Source: an uncultured Bacillota bacterium (GTDB lineage: Bacteria; Bacillota_I; Bacilli_A; RF39; UBA660). From it: DNA of 41,342 bases. A model generated the notes under the pieces. That model saw only the letters and a list, made by a program, of their open reading frames with translations, was not told the origin of the DNA and made no database searches. The position numbers and the translations under genes are program-made. Location: positions 1 through 41,342 of the forward strand of contig CAMOPK010000001.1 in NCBI GenBank assembly GCA_946622285.1. Direction: 5' to 3'. Every line of letters begins with the position of its first letter. Within the stretch, counting starts at the first letter, position 1. Shown piece after piece: positions 11,726 through 14,456 of the stretch.

Positions 11726-11814
11726 TGGCGAAGAGTGTGGGATTCGAACCCACGTGCCACGAATGACAACTTGATTTCGAGTCAAGCTCGTTATAACCAC
11801 TTCGATAACTCTTC
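11726..11814 (-). tRNA. tRNA-Ser (anticodon CGA), CCA encoded
   Basis: GAAGAGT...CTTGA-CTCGAAA-TCAAG...variable arm TGTCA-TTCG-TGGCA...GTGGG-TTCGAAT-CCCAC-ACTCTTC-G-CCA. Confidence 0.95.
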
Positions 11815-12060
11815 TTAAATTCTCACACTTTTAATTTTTTGCAATTCAAATCTATATTTTTGTTTAATATTTGGATATTTTTGATGATCAACTTCAGCCA
11901 AAAATGAATCAATAGGTCTTACCCAAACAGGAGCATTATCATATAAACCACGATAAATAACTACTTCTTTTTCATCTTCAGAGTATTTTCCAATTTCTAA
12001 CACAATATAATAATCACCTTTAAAATGTTTATAAACACCATTAATTTTCACTTTTCGCAT
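11815..12060 (-). CDS. DUF1653 domain protein
   Basis: MRKVKINGVYKHFKGDYYIVLEIGKYSEDEKEVVIYRGLYDNAPVWVRPIDSFLAEV matches the DUF1653 pattern as I know it. Confidence 0.8.
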   Translation of the reverse strand: MRKVKINGVYKHFKGDYYIVLEIGKYSEDEKEVVIYRGLYDNAPVWVRPIDSFLAEVDHQKYPNIKQKYRFELQKIKSVRI

Positions 12061-12097
12061 TTTTTAACCACCTAATATCATTATACAACATTTTATA

Positions 12098-12126
12098 TTG
12101 ATTTATGTTATTTTTTTATGTATACT
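12098..12126 (+). promoter_or_regulatory. Promoter (TTGATT-N17-TATACT)
   Basis: Hexamers with 17-nt spacer, about 25 nt before the revised start at 12152. The ORF-track TTG start at 12098 is the -35 box. Confidence 0.65.
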
Positions 12127-12151
12127 AAACCTTATTAAAGGGATGATATAT

Positions 12152-12643
12152 ATGAAAAGTAGTGAAATAAGTACAAAAAAAGATAGTATTATTGAAAGAA
12201 GAAAAGAATTAACTGCTCAATTAGATGGCGTAAAAGCTGAATTAACACAGTTACAAACTGAATGTCCACATGAATTAGTATTAGTATTTGACGATCATTG
12301 TCCTCATATGATTGGACCAACACATCGTTGCAAATGCCCTGCTTGTGGTAAAAGGGAGGATATATATCCTACTCATGAATATGAGAAAAGTTCTTTTAAA
12401 GATTCTAAAAGAATAAACTTAACTGATTACGATTTTTGTAATCTAGGATTCACTAACTGTAACGAAATTTATACACCAATTATTACTGAAATTTTTACAC
12501 ATTATGAATATTATTATGAATCTGGTACTCCTATTGAAGAAATTAATCAAACAATGAGACGAGTTGTTGATGCTATGATAAAAGTTCATGTTCCAGTTAA
12601 ACAAATTGGTAAAAATCCATTTCTATTTAAGTCAAATGACTAA
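12152..12643 (+). CDS. Hypothetical zinc-ribbon-like protein
   Basis: MKSSEISTKKDSIIERRKELTAQLDGVKAELTQLQTECPHELVLVFDDHCPHMIGPTHRCKCPACGKREDI; Cys/His cluster after a coiled-coil-like start; AAAGGGATGATATATATG. Confidence 0.65.
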   Translation: MKSSEISTKKDSIIERRKELTAQLDGVKAELTQLQTECPHELVLVFDDHCPHMIGPTHRCKCPACGKREDIYPTHEYEKSSFKDSKRINLTDYDFCNLGFTNCNEIYTPIITEIFTHYEYYYESGTPIEEINQTMRRVVDAMIKVHVPVKQIGKNPFLFKSND

Positions 12644-12664
12644 GGTCAATTTGACTTTTTTTTT
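12629..12664 (+). terminator. Intrinsic terminator
   Basis: AAGTCAAATGAC-TAAG-GTCAATTTGACTTTTTTTTT. Confidence 0.85.
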
Positions 12665-12708
12665 AAAAAGTGCATAATATTGGGGTCGAAACAAAAGGGG
12701 GAAATATT

Positions 12709-13095
12709 ATGACATTTAATAGTAATGAAAGTGAAAAGGTTTCTGTCTGTGCATTAGTAGTAAAATTAATTGATAGTGCAACATCATATTCAAAGGTATA
12801 TGAATATAAAGTCCCAGGTGAAGGTGCTGAACTTGCTTATGCAGCAGGATTTATTTCAACAACTTATAAAAATCTTGGAAAAAAAGTTGCATCTCGTAAA
12901 GTAGATAATTGTAAATCAATAATGTACATATCTGGTTTTAGTACAGCAAGTAGTGTTTCATTTGATGAACAAAAGCTTTATGAGCAAATTAAAAGTGAAA
13001 TCGAAACATTTAAAGCTGAAGCTAAAAATGCTGCAATTGCTCAAGCCCAATTAAGAGCTGCACAAAGATTGGAAAGACAACCACGTACAAAATAA
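12709..13095 (+). CDS. Hypothetical protein (128 aa)
   Basis: MTFNSNESEKVSVCALVVKLIDSATSYSKVYEYKVPGEG...; ATG preceded by AAAAGGGGGAAATATT. ORF-track start at 12670 lies in promoter-like sequence. Confidence 0.65.
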   Translation: MTFNSNESEKVSVCALVVKLIDSATSYSKVYEYKVPGEGAELAYAAGFISTTYKNLGKKVASRKVDNCKSIMYISGFSTASSVSFDEQKLYEQIKSEIETFKAEAKNAAIAQAQLRAAQRLERQPRTK

Positions 13096-13127
13096 AAAAG
13101 AATGTTAATAAACATTCTTTTTATTTT
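13096..13127. terminator. Bidirectional terminator between hypothetical gene and tRNA-Leu
   Basis: AAAGAATGTT-AATA-AACATTCTTT flanked by A-rich and T-rich tracts. Confidence 0.75.
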
Positions 13128-13131
13128 TATA

Positions 13132-13217
13132 TGGTGCAAGAAAGGAGACTTGAACTCCCACGAGCATATGCCCACTACCCCCTCAAAGTAGCGCGTCTAC
13201 CATTCCGCCATCCTTGC
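13132..13217 (-). tRNA. tRNA-Leu (anticodon GAG), CCA encoded
   Basis: GCAAGGATGGCGGAATGGTAGACGCGCTACTTTGAGGGGGTAGTGGGCATATGCTCGTGGGAGTTCAAGTCTCCTTTCTTGCACCA. Confidence 0.95.
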
Positions 13218-13316
13218 GTTTCATAAATAGATTATACTACAAATAGTCAAAAATTGTAATTTTTTATTAATCATACTATGATATATTCGATAAAAAGTAA
13301 AGAACAAATAAGATTA

Positions 13317-13344
13317 AAAAAGATTAACATTGTTAATCTTTTTT
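13317..13344 (-). terminator. Intrinsic terminator after tRNA-Thr
   Basis: Minus strand AAAAGATTAAC-AAT-GTTAATCTTTTTT. Confidence 0.8.
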
Positions 13345-13354
13345 ATTGCTTATA

Positions 13355-13430
13355 TGGTGCTGGAAATAGGACTTGAACCTACGACCTGCTCTTTACGAGG
13401 GAGCTGCTCTACCAACTGAGCTATTCCAGC
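13355..13430 (-). tRNA. tRNA-Thr (anticodon CGT), CCA encoded
   Basis: GCTGGAATAGCTCAGTTGGTAGAGCAGCTCCCTCGTAAAGAGCAGGTCGTAGGTTCAAGTCCTATTTCCAGCACCA. Confidence 0.95.
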
Positions 13431-13499
13431 AATTAACTCAATTATAATACTTTAGTTTTTTTTTGACAATAAAAAAATAGCTATTTGCTATTCTTCTAT
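13430..13499. repeat. 70-bp direct repeat copy A (stop + terminator + promoter)
   Basis: CAATTAACTCAATTATAATACTTTAGTTTTTTTTTGACAATAAAAAAATAGCTATTTGCTATTCTTCTAT; differs at 1/70 positions from 13961-14030. Confidence 0.97.
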
Positions 13500-13912
13500 C
13501 GTCTCTTTCGAGGTCTTTCAAATCTGCTAATATTTGGATTCCCTGCTATCACAGTTCTTGTCTTTAAACTGTGTGGATCTTGACCCATTTTTAATAAATG
13601 TGTCTGTTGAGTAGCAATTCTAGCTGCTTTAAGAGCTTCTAATTCTGCTTTTTTAAGATCTGCTAATTCAGTTTCAGTTAATTCTTCTTGTTCCTGTTGT
13701 TTATCTTGTTCTTCTTGCTGTCTTTTTAAAGCATAATAACCTTCCATTGATCTATTAAAACTAACAATTCTACTTATTTTTACAATTTCTTCTTCAGTAA
13801 ATCCTAAACTTAGTAATTCTTTTTTCCATTCATCAAAATCAGAGTAATCAGTTTTGACATCAGTTGCCTGATATCTTTTCCACAACTCAATTGTTTCTCT
13901 TACAATATTCAT
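13496..13912 (-). CDS. Hypothetical protein, Q/E-rich with basic C-terminus
   Basis: 138 aa MNIVRETIELWKRYQATDVKTDYSDFDEWKKELL...RFERPRKRR; preceded by GAAGGAGGAAACAAATG; flanked by the 70-bp repeats. Confidence 0.75.
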   Translation of the reverse strand: MNIVRETIELWKRYQATDVKTDYSDFDEWKKELLSLGFTEEEIVKISRIVSFNRSMEGYYALKRQQEEQDKQQEQEELTETELADLKKAELEALKAARIATQQTHLLKMGQDPHSLKTRTVIAGNPNISRFERPRKRR

Positions 13913-13960
13913 TTGTTTCCTCCTTCAATTTCTTTATTAAAGAAATCAAACTTATTCTAT

Positions 13961-14030
13961 CAATTAACTCAATTATAATACTTTAGTCTTTTTTTGACAA
14001 TAAAAAAATAGCTATTTGCTATTCTTCTAT
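13961..14030. repeat. 70-bp direct repeat copy B (rpoE stop + terminator + promoter)
   Basis: CAATTAACTCAATTATAATACTTTAGTCTTTTTTTGACAATAAAAAAATAGCTATTTGCTATTCTTCTAT; 69/70 identical to copy A. Confidence 0.97.
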
Positions 14031-14456
14031 TTCATCATCCCCAATGATAGTTAAATCATCAAGGTCATCATCATCATCTAAATCAGCGTCAACTACATCA
14101 TCAACACTTTCAAGTGATTCTCCTTCTGTTTCTTCTTCTTCAGTTTCTTCTGGTTCTTCAATAACTTCATCTTCAACTTCTTCATCGTCATCAATAACAA
14201 TTTCAACTGAATGATGTTCTCTTAAATCCCATTCATTATTATCTAAAACGATAAATCTTTTATCCATTGTAAGTGCTGTATAGAAGTCGCCTATTTTACT
14301 CGCATATTGAGTATCATTAAATCCTAATAAATCACATACTTTTCTAAATAAATCAGGAGTTTTTAAAGTAACATTATTTTCCTTTAAGTAACGGTATGCA
14401 ATCTCTACATAAGTAAGTAAACTTAGTTCTTCTTTTGTCATATCAGTTAATTTCAT
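14019..14456 (-). CDS. rpoE: DNA-directed RNA polymerase subunit delta
   Basis: KLTDMTKEELSLLTYVEIAYRYLKENNVTLKTPDLFRKVCDLL and a highly acidic Asp/Glu tail; adjacent to argS. Confidence 0.92.
   Translation of the reverse strand: MKLTDMTKEELSLLTYVEIAYRYLKENNVTLKTPDLFRKVCDLLGFNDTQYASKIGDFYTALTMDKRFIVLDNNEWDLREHHSVEIVIDDDEEVEDEVIEEPEETEEEETEGESLESVDDVVDADLDDDDDLDDLTIIGDDEIEE

Follow-up and report, generated by a model that had tools for sequence, protein, structure and literature searches.

Insertion sequences, MITEs and transposons carry terminal inverted repeats, a transposase or dispersed copies and leave a short target duplication, and elements that integrate at tRNA genes bring an integrase gene and an att core within the tRNA, usually in its 3' part. 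Other segments, which have no mobility genes, are found as alternative cargos between the same two conserved genes in different strains. In Neisseria, the name minimal mobile elements is in use for them (PMC2784325). Variable segments between direct repeats ("r-loci") are also a known class, most of their repeats being shorter than 30 bp, and have been attributed to illegitimate or short-homology recombination (PMC2884548). In E. coli, single crossovers leave flanking duplications of 109-950 bp, beside homology-facilitated illegitimate recombination (PMC3240628). The locus described here, in an uncultured Bacillota bacterium, holds an orphan gene between rpoE and tRNA-Thr, flanked by two copies of the boundary.

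The window, that is, the whole stretch of 41,342 nucleotides that was analysed, bears a direct repeat at 13422-13499 and 13953-14030 (spacing 531; 75/78, or 96% over 78 nt, in a repeat search of the window). Its core consists of copy A (13430-13499) and copy B (13961-14030), whose identity at 69 of 70 positions, reported in a preliminary description, is confirmed by the repeat search and by alignment. Base 1 of tRNA-Thr (13430) is already part of the 70-mer, and the 9-nt extension into this tRNA adds two mismatches (GCTGGAATA vs GATAGAATA). Read on the minus strand, copy A comprises the stop of the orphan ORF, a terminator-like hairpin (~13492-13471) and a predicted promoter (13469-13441), followed by tRNA-Thr, and copy B comprises the rpoE stop, a terminator-like hairpin (~14023-14002) and a predicted promoter (14000-13972). 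Fold and promoter scan find the hairpin and then TTGTCA-N17-TATAAT in each copy, as had been described; the promoters match 11/12 consensus bases, and the AT-rich hairpin with its U-tract reaches -8.3 kcal/mol in each copy (z -3.8; 0 shuffles as good). The hairpin is not reported by a strict terminator scan because it is AT-rich and the scan demands three G-C pairs, and the terminator claim therefore rests on the fold, the U-tract and conservation. The ORF list likewise bears out that copy B ends rpoE and that the first TAG of copy A ends a 138-aa ORF.

A self-comparison of all 968,065 bases of the genome listed 30 hits for close direct repeats 40 bp or more in length, and those that were inspected are mostly coding repeats or paralogues, tandem arrays or dispersed elements. 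Because the inspected repeats are mostly of these other kinds, near identity over 70 bp across a non-coding boundary is not a matter of chance. A genome-wide search with the 70-mer, proposed earlier as a way to see whether it flanks other cargo, was run and gave no further occurrence in the 968-kb genome beyond copies A and B; this single locus rules out a mobile or regulatory repeat family.

The flanking genes are rpoE (RNA polymerase delta subunit; 14019-14456, minus strand), whose last codons and stop TAG (14021-14019) lie inside copy B, and an intact tRNA-Thr(CGT) (13355-13430, minus strand; ARAGORN, Rfam). The rpoE product has an acidic C-terminus, matches to Bacilli records and a 145-aa orthologue in G001, the only genome of the same genus among the relatives searched (n = 60); a search of genome contigs with rpoE returned distant Bacilli as the sole matches. 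Because rpoE has no Pfam match, it is named by orthology, by the acidic tail and by its place adjoining argS. In most family genomes inspected, prfA (named from sequence) is the usual next gene after rpoE, and elsewhere in the sampled family rpoE has no tRNA gene nearby. As far as these genomes go, the rpoE/tRNA-Thr neighbourhood is therefore a novelty of the genus.

On its contig C2, G001 has rpoE, a single module and tRNA-Thr(CGT), with neither the ORF nor a second copy. Copy A is orthologous to this single module, which keeps TTGTCA, the 17-base spacer, TATAAT and, though its loop differs, the hairpin; the rest has diverged. G001 is 76% complete, and the rpoE/tRNA-Thr locus is contiguous there. 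The relative that had been looked for, with a single 70-bp copy and without 13500-13960, is thus found in a congener of another species, and this empty site supports, for this genus, the proposed ancestral order rpoE-terminator-promoter-tRNA-Thr, with the ORF gained between duplicated modules. Because G001 is the single congener, the polarity rests on one empty site and on absence elsewhere. Moreover, copies A and B differ at 1/66 positions, whereas either copy differs from the G001 module at 16-17/63 plus gaps; for rpoE, dS between the window and G001 is ~0.56, with 5/25 fourfold sites changed. By these values, either the duplication postdates the species split by far or the copies have been homogenised, in line with the earlier view that near identity marks a recent event or gene conversion.

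The inserted segment between the copies (13500-13960, minus strand) is 453-461 bp long (~0.45 kb), unique in the genome and absent from G001. It has no match in its own genome better than shuffled controls, which rules out a local or paralogous source; its G+C (30% vs 28.5% for the genome) and its codon use fit the genome. Neither an integrase nor a terminal inverted repeat nor a dispersed copy was found for it. It is no insertion sequence, MITE or transposon, for its coding frame reaches one end of the insert, it is single copy and it matches no such family; nor is it a tRNA-integrating element, as it lacks an integrase and the repeat extends into the tRNA 5' end by nine bases at most. No donor molecule carrying the insert was found in GTDB contigs, IMG/VR, phages, plasmids and order and phylum genomes, collections that are incomplete. 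As for a phage or plasmid origin, there is no protein match in phages, plasmids and IMG/VR, and the Pfam and PHROGs family hits are sub-threshold only.

The 138-aa ORF (13496-13912, minus strand) is preceded by a strong Shine-Dalgarno-like sequence, AAGGAGG (13919-13925, minus strand). At its end, the insert gives CG and copy A gives A and TAG (13498-13496), and the ORF is therefore without a stop codon of its own. Its codon log-odds of 0.22 per codon lies within those of control genes in the window (0.15-0.44), the other frames are negative and GC3 is 0.14; by these measures it is coding-like. Pfam and PHROGs gave nothing above background. The ORF occurs once in its own genome, the 386 family genomes yielded no relative at E <= 1e-3, and GTDB contigs, IMG/VR, phages and plasmids yielded no homologue. 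Genomes of the order (385) and of the phylum (392) gave no credible homologue, only weak matches (E 0.002-0.005). Of those in G388, G009, G588, G694 and G678, the first two were inspected and judged spurious: the one in G388 is a RuvA C-terminus, and the one in G009 is a lysine-rich coiled region. A single-sequence structure model shows a helical protein, with two short helices at the N-terminus and a long one (mean pLDDT 79.6, pTM 0.44), and has no match at E <= 0.001 in a PDB fold search. Since the coding frame extends to the joint and takes its stop from copy A, the gene may once have continued further and been truncated at its 3' end. In that case the joint marks a cut in a longer donor gene; otherwise the frame ended at this place by chance.

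Near-identical repeats at the ends of the insert (69/70 and 75/78) and an empty site in G001 are the marks of an insertion with a long target duplication, and it is quite likely that ~0.45 kb was inserted recently, in one illegitimate or single-crossover event, at the rpoE/tRNA-Thr boundary, with the target duplicated on both sides. After the split from the sister species, a segment bearing a small protein gene (5' leader plus coding sequence) would have entered this boundary, and the 70-78 bp target, with the rpoE stop, the terminator, the tRNA promoter and the tRNA 5' end, would have been left on both sides. Copy B would then end rpoE transcription and transcribe the ORF, and copy A would end ORF transcription and transcribe tRNA-Thr. 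We infer this double service of each copy from the order of the predicted signals, and under it neither neighbour would have lost its own. The joining may have been a Campbell-type single crossover, with a small circularised molecule as the donor; alternatively, a fragment may have been captured at a widely staggered break, or the polymerase may have switched templates. Any of these three routes can give the copy-insert-copy topology in one step. Microhomology is absent at the joint before copy A, and the other joint, after copy B, shows the resemblance of GATAGAATA to GCTGGAATA.

The near identity of the copies could also arise if the ORF between two modules were old, with gene conversion keeping the copies identical and with G001 having lost the ORF by recombination between them. 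Close direct repeats can indeed convert each other and excise the DNA between them, but the lack of any trace of the ORF in the 386 family genomes would then demand a loss repeated everywhere, unless the gene is younger than the genus anyway, and we regard this history as unlikely. Still less credence is due to an assembly artefact or chimera, in which the assembler duplicated the 70-mer or joined the insert. The genome is a draft of 32 contigs with 88% completeness; however, the locus lies 13 kb inside a 123-kb contig, 70 bp is not long for a repeat by the standards of present-day assemblers, one base distinguishes copy A from copy B, and the insert resembles the genome in composition (30% vs 28.5% G+C) and codon use, so that an artefact seems very improbable.

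It had also been proposed, as a speculation, that a decayed remnant of the tRNA follows copy B. The nine bases GATAGAATA (13953-13961, minus strand), the first of which is the last base of the 70-mer, are identical to the tRNA-Thr 5' end at 7/9 positions (shuffle p ~0.002), which gives that proposal some support over this length, whereas no support is found past base nine (955/2000 shuffles as good), and a longer remnant is no better than chance. The nine bases thus faintly hint at a true tRNA stub, or may reflect chance or homeology at the joint; with 2 changes in 9 bases vs 1 in 69 for the rest, a single age fits the proposed stub only loosely. Such a stub, directly after copy B, is what would remain if a tandem duplication (module, tRNA-Thr, ..., ORF) had been followed by loss of the first tRNA and the second ORF. 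This course, however, would have to fit three events into a very short span, the locus has no other trace of the ORF and no second tRNA-Thr(CGT), and G001 lacks a relative of the ORF downstream of tRNA-Thr; it is distinctly unlikely. The preferred reading remains a recent insertion with duplication of the target.

The surrounding region (11726-14456 in the window) shares with G001 a common skeleton of rpoE, tRNA-Thr(CGT), tRNA-Leu(GAG), tRNA-Ser(CGA) and a DUF308-like gene. Within this skeleton, G001 holds a second tRNA-Thr, a HIT-like gene, a complete leuS and one more ORF, and then ~9 kb with LysM, sigma-factor-like and GroEL-like genes (names read from sequences), and the window holds at the matching intervals nothing, then two small ORFs. 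For one of the latter, at 12712-13095 and adjoining tRNA-Leu, a search of 193 family genomes gave no convincing homologue; for the other, at 12146-12643, family genomes gave a few. On the comparison of the window with G001, this may be a variable region with tRNA genes as its punctuation. A broader proposal, that rpoE/tRNA-Thr/tRNA-Leu/tRNA-Ser is an insertion hotspot of the genus, where incoming genes are taken up along with a copied terminator-promoter module in an unrecognised mode of gain that leaves the neighbours intact by construction, is very improbable. The complete leuS of G001 (L074 1508-3919) lies in the variable region, and another leuS piece (C-terminal, a 314-aa frame) lies on contig C29; this is possibly a replacement or a second leuS.

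Some other repeats in the window's own genome were recorded. On contig C27, 78-bp repeats around a HIT-like gene were considered as a second case and rejected because the repeat is a dispersed element present in several genera. This element, at C27:794-871, 1384-1460 and 1875-1917, consists of AGTTTTAAACCCCTATGATTAYCGTGCCATTTAGA...AAAACACTA and a terminator, also occurs in other genera of the family and has no Rfam match; it is a candidate unclassified structured RNA or attenuator. Three tandem units at C5:52780-53122, each with a TATAAT-like box, TTGAGGG..CACCTTGA and a terminator-like hairpin, have no credible Rfam match and are candidate tandem small-RNA genes. At C10:7393-10142, two adjacent near-identical genes (~520-535 aa; 95% over 1150 bp), in the style of Ig-like surface proteins, are a recent tandem duplication.

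The rpoE/tRNA-Thr locus shows, in a clean and dated snapshot, how a streamlined genome of ~1 Mb can take in a gene that has no known relatives. The long target duplication would give the newcomer a promoter, a terminator and a stop codon, and the neighbours would keep theirs, as far as the signals are predicted. With such repeats on either side, the insert is also expected to be lost precisely and at appreciable rates, so that strain data could measure the gain and loss of an orphan gene directly. Such a gain, with its long target duplication, is of a known kind. As in the minimal mobile elements of Neisseria, the insert lies between the same conserved neighbours and has no mobility genes; those elements carry different cargos, with exchange through flanking homology, whereas only the ORF-present and the empty state are seen at this site, and the neighbouring intervals hold different cargo in the window and in G001. 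As in E. coli Campbell-type integration (PMC3240628), the arrangement is copy-insert-copy and the duplicated segment is homologous to the target, but the repeat is shorter here (70-78 bp vs 109-950 bp) and no donor circle or vector sequence is seen here. Like r-loci (PMC2884548), this is a short segment between direct repeats, present in one genome and absent in another; unlike them, its repeats are 70-78 bp long, each copy would serve a different neighbour, and the comparison is between two species rather than between strains.
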